In this document: positions 24,054 to 40,512 of the stretch, piece after piece | Layout: each line of letters starts with the position of its first letter | Position numbering within the stretch: the stretch's first letter is position 1 | Origin: Mesoflavibacter profundi | Lineage (GTDB): Bacteria > Bacteroidota > Bacteroidia > Flavobacteriales > Flavobacteriaceae | Length of the DNA stretch: 64,000 nt | Direction: 5' to 3' | Assembly: GCF_014764305.1 (NCBI RefSeq) | Contig: NZ_CP061703.1 | Location: 2,014,800 to 2,078,799, forward strand | The notes under the pieces: model-generated | Told to the model about the DNA's origin: nothing | Databases searched by the model: none | The model's input: only the letters and a program-made list of their open reading frames with translations | Program-made: the position numbers and the translations under genes

Positions 24054-24089
24054 TTTGCCTGATTTAAGTCAGGCAAAGCGTCGCGCTTT
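24054..24089. repeat. Double hairpin after tpiA
   Basis: TTTGCCTGA / TCAGGCAAA (9 bp) immediately followed by AAAGCG-TCG-CGCTTT. The two share AAA, so the stems are mutually exclusive at their junction. It is REP-like; a T7 run at about 24101 might also make it a weak terminator. Confidence 0.5.
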
Positions 24090-24175
24090 CCATTATATCT
24101 TTTTTTCGTACCTCAAAAAAGGATGTCATTTCAATCGCTAACACGGGATTATCCGTAAAATAAATAGCAAAACCA

Positions 24176-27090: not shown

Positions 27091-27573
27091 TTAGTTTAAA
27101 AAAAGGTAAAACTTATTCTAGACTAAGTTTTACGTTTTGTTTTTAGACTATAATCGATGTTATAATATCGATTATAAATTTGGCAATTGTTAGCATAGTT
27201 GTTTGGTTTAAGGGTTAATATTACAGTCACATTTTGTGATTGTTTTTTGAAGATATATTTTTTAAATGTTTACTTCCAAGAAAAAAGTTGAAAATCTATA
27301 AAATTCACTTTAACTTATAAACTAAATAAACGTTATCGGTTTTAATATTTTTAAACATCTCTTAATTAAAATTATAATCTGTAAGTTTAAATTGAATTTA
27401 TTATTTAAATATGTAATAATTCAAGGCGTTTTTTTGTAGTGTTTTTTTAAAATAAGGGACTTTTTGTCTGTAAAAAGCAGTTTCTGTTCATTTTGGTTTA
27501 TTTAAATAAATCCTAACAACTTAAATATTAACTTATTTATAGTAGTATATTTGCAAAAATAATTCTCCTAAAA
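27091..27573. other. Long AT-rich intergenic region with two palindromes
   Basis: About 480 bases with no supportable gene. It contains a perfect 10-bp dyad TATAATCGAT / ATCGATTATA with an 8-base centre (27149-27176), and TCACA-TTT-TGTGA (27227-27239), a Crp/Fnr-like dyad in outward arrangement. The nuclease gene has a TATATTTG -7 element at 27546-27553. The dyads could be operators for either divergent gene. Confidence 0.5.
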
Positions 27574-29523
27574 ATGAAACATTTATTAAAAATCTCATGT
27601 TTACTATTCATATGTTTTGGGTATTCTCAAACAGTAGTAATAAATGAGCTAGATTGTGATACACCAGGTATAGACTACCAAGAATTTATAGAGTTAAAAT
27701 CCGAAACTCCAAATTTTCCATTAGACGGTTATGTGTTAGTGTTTTTTAACGGATCTACTTCAGGAGGCGATAGTAGTTATTATGCGTTAGACTTAGATGG
27801 AGCTGTTACAGATGTAAATGGTTTATTGTTAATTGGTAGTGATACGGTTAACCCATATCCGCAAGTGTTTATTGGTGAAAATTTAATTCAAAACGGAGCA
27901 GATGCAATAGCTATTTATTTAGGGAATGACTATGATTTCCCAATTGGGACATTGGCAACACAAACCAATTTAGTAGATGCTTTAGTGTATGATACTAGCG
28001 ATGCAGATGATACAGGCTTGATGGCTTTATTAGGTGTTACAGAGCAGATAAATGAAGGACCAGGAAATAACACAAACTCAATACAGCGTAATAACGATGG
28101 ATCATATACGTCAACTACGCCAACTCCAAGACAGTTAAATGATGGTAGTGGAATTGTATTAAATGCTTTAGAAATTTCTACAAATCAAATTATGATAGAC
28201 GAAGGATTATCTTTTGATATCACTTTTACAGCGCAACAAAATGTGGATTCTGATTATTCATTTTCATTTACATTAAATAACCAGTCTTTTGATACATTCG
28301 ATTTTACAGGAAATACATCATTAACCATTTTAAGTGGTCAAAATCAAGTAACAACAACTATTACTTTAGTAGACGATGCATTAGATGAAGGTGATGAAGA
28401 ACCATTAATTAGATTTGATAATTTGCCAACACCATTAATTCCTTATAATAATAACATTAAATTAAGGGTTGTAGATAACGATTTTACAGTTGCACCATTT
28501 GGTTCTCCAGTAAATCCAACTTATGGATTAGTGTCAAGTACGCAACCGGCAGGTTATTATGATAGTATAGATGGATTGTCAGGAGCAGCTTTAGAGCAAG
28601 CTCTGCAAGATATTGTAGCAGATCCTAATGTAGTTAGAGCACAAACCTATGCGGATATAATAGATATTTTGCAAGAAGCCGATCAAAACCCTGAAAATTC
28701 TAATCAGGTTTGGTTAGTTTATACAGAGCAAGGTAGAGCAAAATTAGATTTTCAAAATAACGCTAGTAATGTTGCAAAATGGAATAGAGAACATACTTTT
28801 CCAAGATCTTTGGCAGGATATAATAGTATTGAAGCAGATGATACACGCGACGGAAAAGATATTTTTTGGGCAACAAAAGCAGATTCTTTAAGACATGGTA
28901 ATAGCGATGCGCATGCATTAAGAGCAGCAGATGGACCTGAAAATAGTTTAAGAGGAAATCAACATTACGGACAATACAATGGTCCTAGCGGCACGTTAGG
29001 TAGCTTTAAAGGTGATGTTGCTAGAAGTGTTTTATTTCTTCAAATAAGGTATAACGGATTAAGTGTAGTTAATGGTTATCCTAGTGTTTCTGGACAAATG
29101 GGTGATTTAGCTACTTTGCTAGATTGGCATAGAAATGATCCGCCTGACGATTTTGAAATGAATCGAAATAATGTGGTTTATGAATGGCAATTTAACCGTA
29201 ACCCATTTATAGATCAACCAGATTTAGTAGAATATATTTGGGGAACAAATGTTGGTGATACCTGGAATCAAAACTTAAATACAGATACTTTTGAAACATC
29301 TTCTATTAAGTTATTTCCAAATCCAATAACAGACAAGCTTTATGTTTCAGGTAAAGAACAAAATTACAATATCTCTGTGTTTTCTTCTGAAGGACGATTA
29401 GTACTAAAACAACAAGTTGCTAATAACAACTACATAGATTTAAAAGTTGCAAGTGGCTTATATTTAGTTAAAATTGAAACTGAAAACAATAAAAGTCTAA
29501 TAAGGAAAATAATAAAAAAATAG
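27574..29523 (+). CDS. T9SS-secreted endonuclease I with lamin-tail domain
   Basis: 649 residues. Signal peptide (MKHLLKISCLLFICFGYSQ); lamin-tail domain (about 20-150, VVINELDCDTPGIDYQEFIE); Calx-beta-like domain (about 210-310); endonuclease I / EndA-NucM domain (about 320-560) with the beta-beta-alpha-metal motif WNREHTFPRSLAG and the later Asn/Asp-rich block GNSDAHALRAADG; and a type A T9SS sorting domain over the last ~75 residues (IKLFPNPITDKLYVSG ... GLYLVKI). It is exported by T9SS and would degrade extracellular DNA or RNA for nutrients or matrix turnover. A terminator follows directly. Confidence 0.93.
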   Translation: MKHLLKISCLLFICFGYSQTVVINELDCDTPGIDYQEFIELKSETPNFPLDGYVLVFFNGSTSGGDSSYYALDLDGAVTDVNGLLLIGSDTVNPYPQVFIGENLIQNGADAIAIYLGNDYDFPIGTLATQTNLVDALVYDTSDADDTGLMALLGVTEQINEGPGNNTNSIQRNNDGSYTSTTPTPRQLNDGSGIVLNALEISTNQIMIDEGLSFDITFTAQQNVDSDYSFSFTLNNQSFDTFDFTGNTSLTILSGQNQVTTTITLVDDALDEGDEEPLIRFDNLPTPLIPYNNNIKLRVVDNDFTVAPFGSPVNPTYGLVSSTQPAGYYDSIDGLSGAALEQALQDIVADPNVVRAQTYADIIDILQEADQNPENSNQVWLVYTEQGRAKLDFQNNASNVAKWNREHTFPRSLAGYNSIEADDTRDGKDIFWATKADSLRHGNSDAHALRAADGPENSLRGNQHYGQYNGPSGTLGSFKGDVARSVLFLQIRYNGLSVVNGYPSVSGQMGDLATLLDWHRNDPPDDFEMNRNNVVYEWQFNRNPFIDQPDLVEYIWGTNVGDTWNQNLNTDTFETSSIKLFPNPITDKLYVSGKEQNYNISVFSSEGRLVLKQQVANNNYIDLKVASGLYLVKIETENNKSLIRKIIKK

Positions 29524-34112: not shown

Positions 34113-34128
34113 TACGTAGACCTACGTA
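34113..34128. promoter_or_regulatory. TACGTA-N4-TACGTA operator of curlin gene 1
   Basis: TACGTAGACCTACGTA; with flanking A/T it is a perfect 8-2-8 dyad. It ends 193 bases before the curlin-1 ATG. A second TACGTA-N4-TACGTA site ends 194 bases before the curlin-2 ATG. The shared motif, one-turn spacing and distance argue for a common regulator. Confidence 0.65.
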
Positions 34129-34283
34129 TTTTTAATTTATTATTAATAATTAGAGAGTAAATATATGTAGGATTAATATTACGTAAAATTGTATTTTATC
34201 GATATTATTAAAATGTATAACGATTAAATTCTTAAAAAAGGATTCAAAAATTAAGCTGTTCAAAATTAGCGTATTAAATGCTT

Positions 34284-34291
34284 TATATTTG
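34284..34291 (+). promoter_or_regulatory. -7 element of curlin gene 1
   Basis: TATATTTG, starting 37 bases before the ATG, followed by a ~28-base leader (AAAGCTATTAATCAATAAAA...) that is identical in front of curlin gene 2. No good -33 box, consistent with an activator-dependent promoter. Confidence 0.65.
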
Positions 34292-34320
34292 TAAAGCTAT
34301 TAATCAATAAAATATTCACA

Positions 34321-35340
34321 ATGAAAAAATTAATTTTCAGTGCAGCTGCACTTATGTGCGGATCTTTAATGTTTGCACAATCAAACGACAGTGACGTTAA
34401 TCAAGTTGGAAACACAAACTCTTCAGTTGTTTCTCAAACAGGTATGACAAATTATTCTACAGTAGAACAATGGGGAGATTTAAACTCTGCAGATGTAATG
34501 CAGGATGGAACTTCAAATTATTCTGATGTAGATTCTTTAGGAGACGAAAACACAGCTATGGCTTCTCAAACAGGAGATTTCAACAGTTCTGAAATTCACC
34601 AAGGATACGGTACAGGAGCTGGTTTAAATGACGGTAATACAGGATCTATTGTTCAAGCAGGAGATTCTAATTATGGTCACATAGATCAATATGGTGACGC
34701 AGATGGATCGGATGATAATACTTCAGCTATTTCTCAAACAGGAAATTATAACTATGCATATAATTATCAGTATGGAGATTTTAATTCGTCTAGCCAATCT
34801 CAAGATGGAGATTTTAATACATCTGTTGCTAATCAGTATGGAGATGCTAACTATTCTATGACAGATCAAATAGGAGATAGTAATACTGTCTATGTTAATC
34901 AAACAGGAGACAACAATATCTCTAATGAATGGCAATGGGGAGATTCAAACTATAGTACAATAGATCAAGTGGGTAATTTTAATGTAGGTGAAAATGCTCA
35001 GTTAGGTAATGATAACGACTCAGATATTGATCAAATTGGAGATGGTAATTATGCTGGTGCTGGTCAATATGGTGACGATAATGAAAGTAATATAATGCAA
35101 ACAGGAGATGATAACTATGCTTTAACTTTACAATATGGAACTATGCATGTTTCTAATGTAACACAAACAGGAGATTTAAATACATCATATGTAATGCAAG
35201 ATGGATTACAACATTTATCTAATGTTACTCAAACAGGAAATGATAACATAAGTGATGTTGGTCAATTCGGAACTACACATGTAAGTAATGTATCACAAAT
35301 AGGAAATAATAATTCTTCTATTGTTACACAAAACGACTAA
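34321..35340 (+). CDS. Curlin-repeat amyloid subunit 1
   Basis: 339 residues. Signal peptide MKKLIFSAAALMCGSLMFAQ, then 28 curlin half-repeats of about 11 residues, consensus N-x-S-x-V-x-Q-x-G-D/N-x, which pair to the ~22-residue strand-turn-strand units of CsgA/CsgB. Repeats are strict except for longer turns near residues 95-110 and 125-135. The last four repeats contain His (THVSNV) and end SIVTQND, nearly the same as the end of curlin 2. It should be secreted unfolded through CsgG and polymerise into cross-beta fibres. Own promoter and operator; tandem terminators follow. Assigned by repeat pattern and by the csgEFG genes downstream. Confidence 0.9.
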   Translation: MKKLIFSAAALMCGSLMFAQSNDSDVNQVGNTNSSVVSQTGMTNYSTVEQWGDLNSADVMQDGTSNYSDVDSLGDENTAMASQTGDFNSSEIHQGYGTGAGLNDGNTGSIVQAGDSNYGHIDQYGDADGSDDNTSAISQTGNYNYAYNYQYGDFNSSSQSQDGDFNTSVANQYGDANYSMTDQIGDSNTVYVNQTGDNNISNEWQWGDSNYSTIDQVGNFNVGENAQLGNDNDSDIDQIGDGNYAGAGQYGDDNESNIMQTGDDNYALTLQYGTMHVSNVTQTGDLNTSYVMQDGLQHLSNVTQTGNDNISDVGQFGTTHVSNVSQIGNNNSSIVTQND

Positions 35341-35362
35341 AACTGTTAAGTATATACAATAC

Positions 35363-35391
35363 AAAACCTCGATTTTTATCGAGGTTTTTTT
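35363..35391 (+). terminator. First of two tandem terminators after curlin gene 1
   Basis: AAACCTCGAT / ATCGAGGTTT stem, loop TTTT, T7 run. Confidence 0.92.
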
Positions 35392-35396
35392 ATATA

Positions 35397-35429
35397 GACT
35401 AATCTTTGCCAGATTAGTCTTTTTTTTTA
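35397..35429 (+). terminator. Second tandem terminator after curlin gene 1
   Basis: GACTAATCT / AGATTAGTC stem, loop TTGCC, T9 run, 5 bases after the first. Two strong terminators in a row insulate curlin gene 2 from curlin gene 1. Confidence 0.9.
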
Positions 35430-35451
35430 TCTAATAATATAAGCTTAAATG

Positions 35452-35467
35452 TACGTAGGTGTACGTA
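35452..35467. promoter_or_regulatory. TACGTA-N4-TACGTA operator of curlin gene 2
   Basis: TACGTAGGTGTACGTA, ending 194 bases before ATG 35661; the counterpart of 34113-34128. The remaining AT-rich gap 35468-35623 shows nothing else I can support. Confidence 0.65.
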
Positions 35468-35623
35468 TATACTGTTGTTATTCAGTATTTAAGCTGTTTT
35501 TTATTTGTAGGAAAAAACTTTCTTGAAAATGCTTTTTACCGATAAAAAAATAATACATAACGAATAATTGCTTGTTTATTAAAACTTAATTAGGACATCT
35601 AATTTTACGATTAAAAAAATATC

Positions 35624-35631
35624 TATATTTG
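35624..35631 (+). promoter_or_regulatory. -7 element of curlin gene 2
   Basis: TATATTTG at exactly the same distance from the ATG as in curlin gene 1, followed by the same leader. Confidence 0.65.
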
Positions 35632-35660
35632 AAAAGCTATTAATCAATAAAATATTCACA

Positions 35661-37163
35661 ATGAAAAAATTATTTTTCAGTGCAGCTGCACTTATGTGTG
35701 GAACTGTAATGTTCGCACAATCAAACACAAGTACTGTTTCAACTATAGGAAACGGAAACTCTTCAACTGTTGGTCAAACAGGATTAACAAACAACTCTTT
35801 AGTAACTCAAGAAGGAGACGACAACATGTCTACTGTTGATCAATTAGGAACATCTAACGATTCTGAAGTTAGACAAGCTTACAGCTCTAACGACAATACT
35901 AGTGATGTAGATCAAGATGGAGATTTTAACGATTCTTTTGTATGGCAGGATGGAGATGATAACGTTTCTTCAGTAGATCAAGATGGAGATAGTAATGACT
36001 CTTATGTTGATCAATGGGGAGATGCAAACTCTAGTTCTGTAGATCAAGAAGGAGATAATAATGGTTCTATAGTTTTACAAGGTTACAACGGTGACAATCA
36101 CACAAGTGATGTAGATCAAGACGGTGATGATAACGATTCTTACGTTTATCAAACTGGAGATGGTAACGATTCTACTGTATTACAAGACGGAGATATGAAT
36201 GATTCTGATGTATCTCAATATGGTAACAGTAATGAATCTACTGTATGGCAAGGTACAACAGGAGATAACAATGATAGTGATGTTTATCAATCTGGAGATG
36301 ATAACGATTCTTTTGTATGGCAAGATGGTAATGATAACTTATCTGATGTTGATCAAATAGGAACAGATAATGACTCATACTTAGATCAATGGGGAGATTT
36401 TAATACTAGCTCTGTAATGCAAGATGGTAATAATAATGATAGTGATGTTTATCAAGGTTACCAAGGAGATTACAATACTAGTGCTGTAGATCAAATAGGA
36501 GATGATAACATTTCTTATGTAAGACAAGATGGAGGAAACAACAATTCAGATGTTGATCAAACAGGAAACATGAATGATTCTGATGTAGATCAAGAAGGAT
36601 TCTTTAATGGTAGTTTAGTTTCTCAAACTGGAGATTCTAACATTTCTACTACAGATCAAGACGGAGATGCAAATGGTTCTACTCAAATTCAATTTGGAAA
36701 TGATAACGAGTCTTATGTAACTCAAGATGGTAACAACAATGGATCTTTTGTAGCTCAAGTTGGTGATATGAACGATTCTTTTGTAGATCAAACAGGAAAC
36801 CTTAACGGTTCTTCAGTTGCTCAAAATGGAGATAGTAATATTTCTGATGTAGATCAAATTGGAAATGCTAATGGTTCTTCAGTTGCTCAAGCTGGAAATG
36901 ATAACGAATCTTACGTTATGCAAACAGGAGACTTAAACACTTCTACTGTAGCACAAACAGGAGATTTACACTTATCTACAGTTACTCAAACAGGAATGCT
37001 TAACATTAGTGATGTTGCACAAGATGGATTAAGCCATACAAGTGATGTATTACAAGATGGTATGGGTAACAACAGTATAGTTTCTCAAACTGGGAATACT
37101 CATGTAAGTGATGTTGACCAAATTGGTAACAACAACTCATCTGTTGTAACTCAAATGGACTAA
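35661..37163 (+). CDS. Curlin-repeat amyloid subunit 2 (large, Asp-rich)
   Basis: 500 residues, more than three times E. coli CsgA. The signal peptide (MKKLFFSAAALMCGTVMFAQ) is almost identical to subunit 1 at DNA level. It is followed by 43 half-repeats of the type DNDSYVDQWGD. Extended 13-residue units with GY/GT turns recur at half-repeats 5, 11, 16 and 22, giving a super-repeat of about 5.5 units in the N-terminal half. Very acidic: Asp occupies many turn and outward positions, which would discourage premature aggregation and could bind cations. The C-terminus (THVSDVDQIGNNNSS...) matches subunit 1. Probably the main fibre subunit; that ranking is inferred. Confidence 0.9.
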   Translation: MKKLFFSAAALMCGTVMFAQSNTSTVSTIGNGNSSTVGQTGLTNNSLVTQEGDDNMSTVDQLGTSNDSEVRQAYSSNDNTSDVDQDGDFNDSFVWQDGDDNVSSVDQDGDSNDSYVDQWGDANSSSVDQEGDNNGSIVLQGYNGDNHTSDVDQDGDDNDSYVYQTGDGNDSTVLQDGDMNDSDVSQYGNSNESTVWQGTTGDNNDSDVYQSGDDNDSFVWQDGNDNLSDVDQIGTDNDSYLDQWGDFNTSSVMQDGNNNDSDVYQGYQGDYNTSAVDQIGDDNISYVRQDGGNNNSDVDQTGNMNDSDVDQEGFFNGSLVSQTGDSNISTTDQDGDANGSTQIQFGNDNESYVTQDGNNNGSFVAQVGDMNDSFVDQTGNLNGSSVAQNGDSNISDVDQIGNANGSSVAQAGNDNESYVMQTGDLNTSTVAQTGDLHLSTVTQTGMLNISDVAQDGLSHTSDVLQDGMGNNSIVSQTGNTHVSDVDQIGNNNSSVVTQMD

Positions 37164-37282: not shown

Positions 37283-37780
37283 ATGAAAAAAATATTAAGT
37301 ATAATTATCCTTAATTTAGTTTTTGCATTTAGTAGTAGCGCGCAAACTTTTGTTAATGATAATGCATCAAATACAACAGCTGAAGCATTGTCTAACAGCC
37401 AAGCAAATATGTTGTTAGTTAATCAAACACAAATAGCGCAACAAAATAATGTGTTTATTACTCAAATAGGAGATAGTAATGTTTCTAATACTAAAATTAA
37501 ATCTCAGGATAGTAATGTAACTGTTATTCAAAACGGAAATGATAACTCTACATTTGTTAATTTAAATGTAAATACTATTGACCAATCGATTTTACAAAAC
37601 GGAAATAATAATACTGTTTTTGATACCAGTTTTTTACAGTCTCAAGTAAGAGAGGCAACAATTGTTCAAAATGGTGACAATCAAAATTTAACCATTTTTG
37701 GAAACAACTCTTTATCAGATAAAATAAAAGTTTCTATGCAGGGACAAAGTCAATCTGTAATAATTAGAAATTTCGATTAG
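37283..37780 (+). CDS. Minor curlin-like protein (candidate nucleator, CsgB role)
   Basis: 165 residues. Signal peptide MKKILSIIILNLVFAFSSSAQ, then a spacer (about 22-55) and irregular curlin-like repeats (VFITQIGDSNVSN, VTVIQNGNDNSTFVN, SILQNGNNNTVF, ATIVQNGDNQNLTI), ending with a basic/hydrophobic last unit (KVSMQGQSQSVIIRNFD). The fewer, less regular repeats and a divergent C-terminal unit resemble CsgB, which anchors and nucleates CsgA. It is the first gene of the csgEFG operon (4-base gap to csgE). The nucleator role is inferred from context. Confidence 0.75.
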   Translation: MKKILSIIILNLVFAFSSSAQTFVNDNASNTTAEALSNSQANMLLVNQTQIAQQNNVFITQIGDSNVSNTKIKSQDSNVTVIQNGNDNSTFVNLNVNTIDQSILQNGNNNTVFDTSFLQSQVREATIVQNGDNQNLTIFGNNSLSDKIKVSMQGQSQSVIIRNFD

Positions 37781-37784
37781 TCAC

Positions 37785-38594
37785 ATGTTTAAATTTGATA
37801 AAAAGCAAGTTGTTTTAAGTATAGTTTGTGTAATTTTTATGCATGCAATTACACTTGCTCAAATTATCAATAAAGACATTGAAGCAAAAATAAGAACAGA
37901 AAAAAATGATGGTTTTATAACAATTGTAGGAACTGCATTTAATAAAACCGAAATTACAGAAAGCCTAGTTTATAAATTATCTGTAATAAAAAAAGATTCG
38001 CTAGGCAACTCTTCCAAAAACGACCAAGAAGGTAGATTTGTAATACAAGCAAATCAAAAATTAGATTTATCTTCTACCGTAATTAATAGTCCAAAACATA
38101 CAAAAACCACATTACTTTTATTAATCTACAATTTAGATAAAAAGTTAATTGGAAAAGATAGAATAGTTTTAAATGATGATGGAAGTGATCAAGCATTTAA
38201 GAAAAAAATTCTTTCAGATATAAATTTAAAAACAAACCCTAAAGCAACACAACAAACTGTAGATGTAAGCAGTACAAAAGAAGATGGAGTAGAAATAAAA
38301 GGGTTGGTATTAGAAGAAACAAAAACAAAACCAGGTAGAGATTTTTACAAACTTTTTTATAACTTGTATACTGTAAATAATATAAACGCAAATAAAATTG
38401 TAAAAATAAAAGAGGTTTTAGCTCTAGGTAGAAATACTAAAATAGAAGTTTTAGTAGGCGAAAAAAAGGTGTTCGAATTTTTTGTAAGACCAAGTATTGA
38501 CTATTTAACCAAAGTCAATGATCAAGCCATATTAAGAGTGTACAAATACTTAAAAAATTTAGAAGAAAGCGCAGATATACAACAGCGCTACTAA
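37785..38594 (+). CDS. csgE: Curli assembly protein CsgE with N-terminal CsgH-like domain
   Basis: 269 residues, about twice E. coli CsgE (129). Signal peptide to about residue 26. The C-terminal half (about 155-265; GRDFYKLFYNLYTVNNINA, EVLVGEKKVFEFFVRPS) is CsgE, the periplasmic cap that guides curlins into the CsgG pore. The N-terminal half (about 30-130) reads as a seven-strand beta domain with the pattern YKLSVIKKDSLGNSS...Q.GRF typical of CsgH, the CsgC-like anti-amyloid chaperone. So chaperone and adaptor appear fused, and no separate csgC/csgH is present. The CsgH assignment is by eye. Gap of 10 bases to csgF. Confidence 0.85.
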   Translation: MFKFDKKQVVLSIVCVIFMHAITLAQIINKDIEAKIRTEKNDGFITIVGTAFNKTEITESLVYKLSVIKKDSLGNSSKNDQEGRFVIQANQKLDLSSTVINSPKHTKTTLLLLIYNLDKKLIGKDRIVLNDDGSDQAFKKKILSDINLKTNPKATQQTVDVSSTKEDGVEIKGLVLEETKTKPGRDFYKLFYNLYTVNNINANKIVKIKEVLALGRNTKIEVLVGEKKVFEFFVRPSIDYLTKVNDQAILRVYKYLKNLEESADIQQRY

Positions 38595-38604
38595 TTTATA
38601 TATT

Positions 38605-39009
38605 ATGAAAACGCTATTAATCACCGTTTGCATGTTAGTTGGATACGCTAGCATTGGACAGCAATTAACTTACCAGCCAATAAATCCAGCATTTGGAGGC
38701 GATACTTTTAACTATCAATGGTTACTTAGTTCTGCTAATTCGCAAAACTCATTTGAAGATCCAGATGCAAAAAATGATAATGCTCAAGGATCAGAATTAG
38801 ATCAATTTGCAGAAAGTTTAAATCGTCAAGTGTTAAGTTCGTTATCAAGAACACTATTTAGTTCGCAATTAGGAGAAGGATTAGAAGAAGGAACATTTAC
38901 ATTCGGGAATTTAACTTTAGAAATTTATGACTCTGCCGAAGGTTTAGTAGTAAATATCCTAGATGTAACCACAGGAGACGAAACCCAAATTATAGTCCCA
39001 AATCCATAA
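38605..39009 (+). CDS. csgF: Curli assembly protein CsgF
   Basis: 134 residues. The signal peptide (ending GYASIGQQ) is followed directly by the CsgF signature LTYQPINPAFGGDTFNYQWL, the N-terminal segment that inserts into the CsgG barrel to form the second constriction. Then a polar linker, a helix (LDQFAESLNRQVLSSLSRTL) and C-terminal beta strands (TFTFGNLTLEIYDSAEG). It couples secretion to nucleation at the cell surface by localising the nucleator. Tightly spaced between csgE and csgG. Confidence 0.95.
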   Translation: MKTLLITVCMLVGYASIGQQLTYQPINPAFGGDTFNYQWLLSSANSQNSFEDPDAKNDNAQGSELDQFAESLNRQVLSSLSRTLFSSQLGEGLEEGTFTFGNLTLEIYDSAEGLVVNILDVTTGDETQIIVPNP

Positions 39010-39024
39010 CTAATCAAAATTAAC

Positions 39025-40512
39025 ATGTTAAAACTTAAGTCTGCTATAGCAGTTATTTTACTACTTGCTTTAACAGGTTGTGGCGCATTTTTTAATCAGC
39101 CTTATCAACAACAAAGAGCAAGAGTTGGCGAAGTTACACCAGTCTCAGAAAAACTAGTAAACTTTCCTTTACCACAAGAACCAGTAGTTGCTGGTGTTTA
39201 TAATTTTAAAGATCAAACAGGACAATATAAATCTGTAGAAAACGGAAGTACTTTTAGTACAGCTGTATCGCAAGGCGGAACAACAATGCTAATAAAAGCA
39301 TTAGAAGATTCTAAATGGTTTACTTTAATAGAAAGAGAAAATTTAAGTAATCTTTTAAATGAAAGAAACATAATAAGAAATACACGTTCAGAATACCGTA
39401 AAAATCAAAACCCAAACGAGCCTAACTTACCACCATTATTATACGCAGGTGTATTGTTAGAAGGCGGTATTATTTCGTACGATACCAATATAATTACTGG
39501 TGGCGCAGGCGCAAGATATTTTGGTGTTGGCGCATCTACACAATATAGAGAAGATAGAATTAGTGTGTATTTAAGAGCTGTAAATACATCAAATGGTAAA
39601 ATATTAAAAACGGTTTATATATCTAAAACCATATTGTCTCAAGCAGTATCTGCAAATTTATTCAAGTATGTGAATTTTCAAAGGTTGTTAGAAACAGAAA
39701 TAGGATTTACAAAAAACGAACCAGTACAACTAGCTTTAAAAGAAGCGATAGAAAAAGCTGTAGAAGCTTTAATAATAGAAGGAATTAAAGACGAATTATG
39801 GTTGCCAAGAGCAAGTGAAGAAGCTACAGCAACCATTATTAAAAATTACGAAGATGAAAAAGCAGAAGCTGAAGCTACACAAATTTACGAACGCTTTTTA
39901 ACAGAGCGAAGAGGTCAAAATGCCATCACAGCAGCTGCAGGAATTAGTCTTATTAACGGAGATTTACCAGATCCACAACCACAATTAAATGTAAAATTAG
40001 GATTTAAACGTCAGTTAAATTCTCATCTAAATTTAGATTTCACTTTCAATAAATTCAACTTAGAAAATAAAACCGTTTTTAACCAAGGATTTATGTCTTT
40101 CGATCTTAATTTAAATTACAACATTCTACCATATGATAAGTTAACACCATATTTGTTTTTTGGCGTAGGTACCAATGCTACAAATAATTTTGAGCAGATA
40201 GATCCTAAAATACAAGCAGGTTTAGGACTAGAATACTTGGTAAAAGAAAATATTGGTGTTTATCTATATGGAGAGCATAATCTTGCCTTTAGTGATCAAT
40301 TAGATAATATAGACGCAGGAACTATGGATGACATGTTTTATAGATTTGGCGTTGGTATAAATTATTATTTAACACAACCATCTACTCAATTTAATAAAAA
40401 GAAAGAGTTAGAAAGATTAAAAAAGAAAGAAATAAAAGCATTAAAAAGAGAGAACAGAAGGAAGATGCAGGAAGAATTAAAGTCAAATAGAAAATCCAAA
40501 TCAAACAACTAG
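39025..40512 (+). CDS. csgG: Curli secretion channel CsgG with C-terminal barrel-like extension
   Basis: 495 residues against 277 for E. coli CsgG. Lipobox LALTGC, then the CsgG domain (about 20-265): VAGVYNFKDQTGQYK, WFTLIERENLSNLLNERNII, YAGVLLEGGIISYDTN and VYLRAVNTSNGKILKTV. It forms the nonameric outer-membrane pore. Residues ~295-450 are beta-rich with repeated aromatic strands (LNVKLGFKRQLNSHLNLDF, TPYLFFGVGTNA, IGVYLYGEHNLAF, FYRFGVGINYYL), like a small OMP barrel; residues ~455-495 are a Lys/Arg-rich helix. The extension's role is unknown. Overlap-free operon position between csgF and the terminal lipoprotein. Confidence 0.93.
   Translation: MLKLKSAIAVILLLALTGCGAFFNQPYQQQRARVGEVTPVSEKLVNFPLPQEPVVAGVYNFKDQTGQYKSVENGSTFSTAVSQGGTTMLIKALEDSKWFTLIERENLSNLLNERNIIRNTRSEYRKNQNPNEPNLPPLLYAGVLLEGGIISYDTNIITGGAGARYFGVGASTQYREDRISVYLRAVNTSNGKILKTVYISKTILSQAVSANLFKYVNFQRLLETEIGFTKNEPVQLALKEAIEKAVEALIIEGIKDELWLPRASEEATATIIKNYEDEKAEAEATQIYERFLTERRGQNAITAAAGISLINGDLPDPQPQLNVKLGFKRQLNSHLNLDFTFNKFNLENKTVFNQGFMSFDLNLNYNILPYDKLTPYLFFGVGTNATNNFEQIDPKIQAGLGLEYLVKENIGVYLYGEHNLAFSDQLDNIDAGTMDDMFYRFGVGINYYLTQPSTQFNKKKELERLKKKEIKALKRENRRKMQEELKSNRKSKSNN

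Follow-up and report, generated by a model that had tools for sequence, protein, structure and literature searches.

A putative operator shared by curlin genes and candidate small RNAs in Mesoflavibacter and its relatives

What controls curli fibres in marine flavobacteria? Curli are functional amyloids that build biofilms, and the accessible part of a 2012 survey reports csgD missing from all Bacteroidetes genera examined except Spirosoma (PMC3521004), which leaves the control of curli in these genera open. The question is posed afresh by a stretch of 64,000 nucleotides (nt) of the Mesoflavibacter profundi genome (contig NZ_CP061703.1, positions 2,014,800 to 2,078,799 of the forward strand, hereafter the window), in which two curlin genes at 34321..35340 and 35661..37163 (both on the plus strand) are each preceded by one copy of the 16-mer TACGTA-N4-TACGTA. 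A first-pass annotation of the sequence suggested that this repeat may mark an undescribed curli regulator of Flavobacteria, CsgD not being in the window, and a good candidate can now be named, a NarL/LuxR-type response regulator (RR) encoded outside the window. Reading from sequence, I put the probability at roughly three in four that TACGTA-N4-TACGTA is the operator of this RR, which would co-control the curlins and a set of small RNAs.

The two putative regulator sites, TACGTAGACCTACGTA before curlin gene 1 (34113..34128) and TACGTAGGTGTACGTA before curlin gene 2 (35452..35467), both on the plus strand, are the only places in the window that match perfectly, 100 shuffles gave no match, and the first is identical over its 16 letters to two units of the array described below, read on the regulator's strand. 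The distances first given for the site (193 and 194 bases before the ATG) and for the TATATTTG element (starting 37 bases before each ATG) are both borne out, the former counted as ATG position (34321 and 35661) minus site end, with 192 and 193 bases intervening. The TATATTTG cores themselves (34284..34291 and 35624..35631, plus strand) are of a kind that a script seeking such cores found at 22 curlin genes in 16 genomes including this one, and I take them to be a Bacteroidetes-type -7 element, that is, a promoter type; transcripts are predicted to start at GCTATTAATCAAT (34296..34308 and 35636..35648, plus strand), and the array RNAs begin alike. The accompanying claim that everything outside the two motifs has diverged stands from the site to the -7 element, where 94 of 162 aligned columns are identical (shuffled mean 88.8, maximum 96), and fails from the -7 element to the ATG, where 39 of 40 positions are identical between the curlin genes, so that conservation extends beyond the two motifs. 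Likewise, the distance is tight in Mesoflavibacter (167-168 nt from site to GCTATTAAT), and a gap of 167-170 nt to the predicted start also covers several Olleya genes and two Lacinutrix genes, but it spans 159-195 nt over all the relatives measured.

Across the 3.09-Mb genome the exact motif occurs at seven places against none for a reversed control, and is thus not randomly distributed: two copies precede the curlins, one lies 116 bases before a 301-amino-acid (aa) open reading frame (ORF) without a Pfam or NCBIfam match, and four form a tandem cluster. Six of the seven are intergenic and the seventh overlaps the stop codon of the RR gene (C1:1605270-1605911 including the stop, outside the window), directly behind which the four clustered sites follow one another at spacings of 154, 159 and 152, the overlapping one being the nearest. 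The 213-aa product has the make-up of the NarL/FixJ type, a receiver domain with its phosphoacceptor aspartate (Response_reg, E 9.5e-25) and a GerE (LuxR-type) helix-turn-helix (E 4.8e-12); D54 is invariant among 81 orthologues, and the closest PDB chains by sequence are VraR (5hev) and NarL (1a04). It was rejected as a CsgD orthologue, scoring 44.6 bits with the CsgD equivalog model at a cut-off of 250, and it also falls short of the NCBIfam GacA/UvrY model (99.3 bits, cut-off 280). The idea that the site marks curli specifically had to be given up, since four of the seven genomic copies head candidate small RNA genes and the sites of relatives precede varied other genes.

Each of the four array units, read on the regulator's strand, consists of the site, exactly 35 nt holding a -7-like element, and the RNA start, where GCTATTAAT (GCTATAAAT in one unit) is followed by a GGGA-bearing stretch and a terminator-like hairpin. 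The candidate RNA has a 5' GCUAUUAAU or near variant, then a hairpin tipped by GGG and a further one that would act as terminator; in relatives it measures about 65-71 nt. The spacing is exactly 35 nt at 82 of 105 exact sites and at 181 of 246 sites with at most two mismatches. Of 198 array stretches with the start motif, 143 yielded candidate RNAs (139 of them distinct, most of 65-71 nt), and the other 55 were discarded where the script saw no T-run, so the RNA ends are those set by the script; among the 139, GGA is present in 112 and GGGA in 100. An alignment of 32 members, picked by hand from 48 diverse ones and all carrying GGG[AG], so that pair counts lean to the canonical type, gives GCTATTAATTAGTTCTTAGGGAGAATTA and then the terminator hairpin, a consensus of two helices in which two G of the GGG lie in the loop and the third in the closing U-G pair. 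Here 13 of 21 pairs are changed on both sides, and 95.8% of alignment cells pair, compared with 86.5% in shuffles and at most 63% in slid versions; the first helix is nearly invariant, and therefore its covariation rests on one pair while the terminator carries the remainder. A promoter-like element, a fixed start motif and a covarying terminator are the small-RNA traits that can be seen. Rfam gave no match to the M. profundi array at gathering thresholds and, at E<=1 in five loci, seven matches at chance level, none of which reaches the gathering score; the one to sroH (21 of 80 bits) lies on the minus strand at the margin of the L025 array. The start motif GCTATTAAT was tried and rejected as a mark unique to the regulon, as it occurs at 54 genome places against 16 for its control, with a -7 element at six among the 30 listed.

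The tie between site and RR is not confined to this genome, and the sequence of parts seen in its array is repeated in 80 relatives. Around 80 named loci found through the RR (the best 80 of 239), or 81 with that of M. profundi, the 1.5 kb downstream of the RR gene hold 188 sites at up to one mismatch (some overlapping) in 74 loci, and seven loci have none there; none lie in 451 kb upstream, the RR gene included, and five in a further 280 kb downstream. The reversed control around the same loci yields none downstream and four in all. Allowing two mismatches, 80 of the 81 have at least one site, with the start motif 33-37 nt later, and a single locus, L025, has up to eight exact tandem sites.

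Co-occurrence across Flavobacteriaceae points the same way. The RR (E<=1e-35) is found in 78 of 149 family genomes, which represent 148 genera, and these 78 carry 204 exact sites (control 29) compared with 31 (control 20) in the 71 RR-negative genomes; at least one exact site is present in 58 of the 78 versus 17 of the 71 (Fisher p 6e-10, not corrected for phylogeny). The RNA model follows suit, matching 44 of 78 versus 3 of 71 genomes at E<=1e-5 and 54 versus 23 at E<=0.01, the search's own limit; for one count a limit of E<=1e-6 was chosen after the list had been seen, and other limits were also computed. Of the three RR-negative genomes matched at E<=1e-5, G073 has site and RNA with no RR found, G065 has site and RNA, and in G145 an aspartyl-protease-like gene (judged by eye) runs into the RNA copy, RR and site not being seen.

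Does the site also recur before the curlin genes of relatives, as the first-pass annotation would lead one to expect? Curlin genes, taken as ORFs of at least 100 aa with at least four QxGxxN motifs in the stretches fetched, were sought in 24 of the genomes behind the 80 loci plus M. profundi and a second Mesoflavibacter genome (G001), and the site in 23 of these plus G001; ten of the 26 genomes have no Pfam curlin, the genome of the Mesoflavibacter zeaxanthinifaciens locus (G002) was left out, its curlin places being the same as in G001, and the curlin starts in G016 and G017 were shifted 69 nt downstream to the signal-peptide ATG. In the near genera the site does recur, with 15 of the 22 curlin genes preceded by it (13 of 20 plus the two described here) and 12 of the 15 genomes represented. 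G001 has four sites, three behind its RR and one with 194 bases to a curlin ATG, and in G011 a site 212 bp before a curlin-like gene missed by Pfam, which was found through the site itself, stands outside the count of 15. In 13 more distant RR-positive genomes a site lies within 320 bp before 8 of 38 curlin genes, against 0 of 8 in six RR-negative genomes. Among the four distant genomes that have sites before curlins, two show matching variants: in G088 and G098 TACGTG-N4-TACGTA stands behind the RR and also in front of three curlin genes per genome, with one of these six sites read on the other strand.

A main reason for taking the adjacent RR as the binder is that regulators recur beside the RNA under dyads of their own. 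Seventeen RNA copies outside the arrays were hand-picked among the matches listed (the M. profundi genome has no copy outside its array at E<=0.01). Ten of them adjoin a gene for a 255-257-aa PAS-LuxR-like protein (L259-L264, L269, L271, L272; the one tested has GerE, plus PAS just under the cut-off), and in all ten such copies fetched the RNA start follows TACTCAA-N-TTGAGTA at a distance of exactly 35 nt. Three more adjoin a 221-aa protein (L265, L270), which may be a second response regulator, the one tested having only a sub-cut-off Pfam receiver match; all three have a TACGG-N4-CCGTA-like dyad, one of them imperfect, 34 nt before the start. The remaining four carry a TACGTA-type site in L266, L268 and L273 and none in L267. 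Whether at least three Flavobacteriaceae regulators, each with its own dyad, act on one family of small RNAs, possibly of leader origin and with the RR also driving curli, seems to me evenly balanced; if true, separate signals would converge on one RNA through the RR (TACGTA-N4-TACGTA), the PAS-LuxR protein (TACTCAA-N-TTGAGTA) and the 221-aa protein (TACGG-N4-CCGTA), which would offer a natural model of how Bacteroidota integrate signals.

The shape of the 16-mer can be read in more than one way. It was first pictured as a direct repeat, each half meeting the same helix face, and this is one reading among others, because TACGTA is its own palindrome and the 16-mer can also be taken as two inverted heptamers separated by 2 bp. 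NarL-family dimers recognise a dyad of just this kind (7-2-7), and the 16-mer fits the layout. The inner bases favour the dyad only modestly: among 60 distinct combinations of locus and N4, positions 7 and 10 are complementary in 31 (24.9 expected) and positions 8 and 9 in nine (25.7 expected). The idea that array and curlin sites share a helical phase was dropped, the difference of 132-133 nt being 12.6-12.7 turns and not a whole number.

The mechanism I propose is that the RR, phosphorylated at D54, would bind the operator as a dimer and act as an activator, at about -43 for the small RNAs and at a remote site, about -175, for the curlins, both relative to the predicted start; the switching of fibre subunits would then be tied to that of a small-RNA programme. 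Several observations weigh against it. For simple activation the curlin site is unusually distant from the predicted start. Seven of the 22 near-genus curlin genes have no site within 1.5 kb at up to one mismatch (all four in G009, G010 and G012, and one each in G008, G013 and G015), as is true of 30 of the 38 distant ones within 320 bp, and the contrast of 8/38 with 0/8 is not significant (p 0.32). Two distant genomes disagree between their own sites, G037 having TACGTG..CACGTA and G097 TACGTG..TACGTA behind the RR and both TACGTA..TACGTA before the curlin. Of the RR-positive genomes 20 of 78 have no exact site, eight RR-negative genomes have at least two, and the RNA model detects only three of the four M. 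profundi units at E<=0.01. No adjacent kinase gene was found at the M. profundi RR locus. Lastly, TACGTA-N4-TACGTA is also seen behind NarL-type paralogues of 38-45% identity, where it precedes other genes (G102, G106, G129, G148; L218, L219, L220, L223, L292), and hence the site specificity may be shared.

The distance of the curlin sites invites the idea that the RR represses curlins from afar and activates the small RNAs only, which I consider rather unlikely. Its attraction is that 159-195 nt before the predicted start is a different arrangement from the 35 nt of most array units, and with such different distances the two need not share a sign; however, a site that far upstream leaves the promoter uncovered, so that repression would need looping, and no second site (up to one mismatch) nearer than 159 nt to the predicted start was found in the curlin upstream regions measured. 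The paralogues, the RR-negative genomes with two or more sites and the variant mismatches in G037 and G097 suggest instead that a different LuxR-type regulator, paralogous or stand-alone, binds the site and that the array behind the RR is merely another target, yet 74 of 81 loci have the site directly behind this one orthologue and none has it upstream, and the two other regulator-like genes that adjoin RNAs under their own dyads suggest a rule of regulator next to own site, making this alternative improbable in my view.

A third possibility concerns the hairpin units, which could be leaders or attenuators of a hydrophobic-protein gene and not free small RNAs. In M. profundi the last array unit is followed by a hydrophobic ORF of 34 aa (C1:1604577-1604681, minus strand), a simple filter finds one of about 31-52 aa after the array in 64 of 80 RR loci, and in several deep loci without RNA units (among them L221, L232 and L274) the site directly precedes the hydrophobic ORF. 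For the last array unit such a reading may hold, and the RNA may have originated as a leader of this ORF that was later duplicated in tandem. As an account of the units at large it is quite doubtful, given the eight tandem sites of L025 and the RNA copies beside other regulator-like genes. Highly improbable and disfavoured is an account that needs no regulator, in which the repeat would be a structural feature of the DNA or a target of restriction or methylation enzymes: palindromic hexamers such as TACGTA are of the kind recognised by nucleases and methylases, but just seven exact copies in the genome, all intergenic save the one over the RR stop codon, a fixed distance to -7-like elements in the array and a family-wide tie to one RR gene speak otherwise.

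If the RR is indeed the binder, what else would it control, and what would the RNAs do? In 40 stretches around non-array sites in six relatives the sites are almost always outside ORFs of at least 80 aa, and the genes that often follow look by eye lipoprotein-like, secreted, ATPase-like and others, one being the curlin-like gene of G011; this suggests a regulon that extends beyond curli and varies from species to species. Some extra sites in Bizionia and a relative (L198, L210, L212) precede what by eye are TIR-type, GTPase or ATPase look-alikes, perhaps defence genes. The RNAs would probably base-pair with mRNAs of other surface proteins and not with curlin mRNAs, although this is a guess; the curlin mRNAs were set aside as targets at duplex-energy ranks of 70 and 81 among 84 start regions (from the window, L005 and L006). 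The complement of the RNA core, AATTCTCCC, occurs at 14 genome places against four for the reversed control, three of them the array itself, seven antisense to genes, two sense near a start codon and two neither; the sense places, L325 at +29 of an OmpA-family gene and L336 at +9 of a short ORF, belong to what is at most a weak lead to targets. A role as Csr/Rsm sponge is disfavoured, and the RNAs are unlikely to bind CsrA in that way, because CsrA (PF02599) was found in none of the 149 family genomes, M. profundi included, by a search that detected it in 3 of 14 control genomes.

Within the window, AATTCTCC (27561-27574), complementary to the RNA core, lies just before the ATG (27574) of a 649-aa ORF, and this ORF has the lowest duplex energy with the small RNA among the 84 start regions. 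The window also holds a Flavo-1 RNA (RF01705) at 24075-24153 on the minus strand, with another at L006 11194-11265.

The neighbourhood of the RR holds possible signalling partners. In M. profundi it is preceded by a gene of the aspartyl-protease family (retropepsin-like), with a TPR-CHAT gene beyond (by Pfam; L005 10966-13954, minus strand), and a DTGAS motif lies within 1.2 kb upstream of the RR in all 80 named loci. In L274, the sole case tested by Pfam, a kinase gene (HisKA_3, HATPase) overlaps the RR start by four bases, and among 20 deep loci seven have by eye a similar large gene before the RR, the other 13 an aspartyl-protease-like one. Protease and TPR-CHAT protein in place of a kinase make a possible unusual signalling set, to which the small hydrophobic protein behind the array may belong as a membrane peptide; three such proteins tested gave no Pfam match above cut-off.

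The curlin genes themselves encode proteins of 339 aa with 10 repeat matches (PF07012, E 2.2e-43) and 500 aa with 19 (E 2.5e-68). Next in the row, all on the plus strand, come a 165-aa protein (37283..37780) with faint CsgA similarity (no Pfam match; NCBIfam CsgA 16.9 bits, cut-off 160), a CsgE-like gene (37785..38594; PF10627, E 9.6e-11), CsgF (38605..39009; PF10614, E 5.1e-36) and CsgG (39025..40512; PF03783, E 1.3e-66). Curlin repeats, CsgE, CsgF and CsgG, all four by Pfam, thus stand in a single row, the composition of a curli (type VIII) system.

How does this arrangement compare with what is known? No description of this site, RR or RNA was recognised in the literature searched, in which subscription journals were thinly covered. 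These amyloid fibres now have a candidate regulator, with a putative site and further putative targets, and the arrangement of site, RR and RNA suggests how marine flavobacteria may control them; the small RNAs would form a widespread flavobacterial regulatory family without an Rfam match, in genomes where CsrA was undetected. CsgD, the enterobacterial curli master regulator, is likewise a LuxR-type helix-turn-helix protein over curlin genes, as would be the RR, which differs in its site and in being encoded outside the curli row, at the head of a small-RNA array. In Gammaproteobacteria, the NarL-family response regulator GacA/UvrY recognises a palindrome ahead of the genes for the RsmY, RsmZ and CsrB RNAs with their GGA-type loops, and the RR is similarly proposed to drive several alike small RNAs from a palindromic site; here, however, the site is a different one, the RNAs lie in tandem behind the RR, the curlins are apparently direct targets and CsrA was not found. 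CiaR with its csRNAs and LuxO with the Qrr RNAs are further cases of one response regulator driving several near-identical small RNAs, although regulators, RNAs and phyla differ, and the flavobacterial RNAs stand in tandem beside the RR and also beside other regulator-like genes. With CsrA not found and the RR far below the GacA/UvrY and CsgD cut-offs, the system can be filed under neither Gac/Rsm nor LuxO/Qrr. Within the Bacteroidota, Rfp18 of Flavobacterium psychrophilum is, in the available portion of its report, a small RNA predicted to target mRNAs of secreted proteins and adhesins (PMC9723704), and its description sets it apart by at least three stem-loops, compared with two here (PMC9723704). 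The FopS small RNAs of Bacteroides thetaiotaomicron act on outer-membrane protein mRNAs (PMC11697453). They too belong to the Bacteroidota, measure about 65-70 nt and exist in multiple copies, but the FopS genes are at multiple loci and their regulator is mentioned there only as unknown (PMC11697453), while the RNAs described here follow in tandem the gene of the regulator proposed to drive them.

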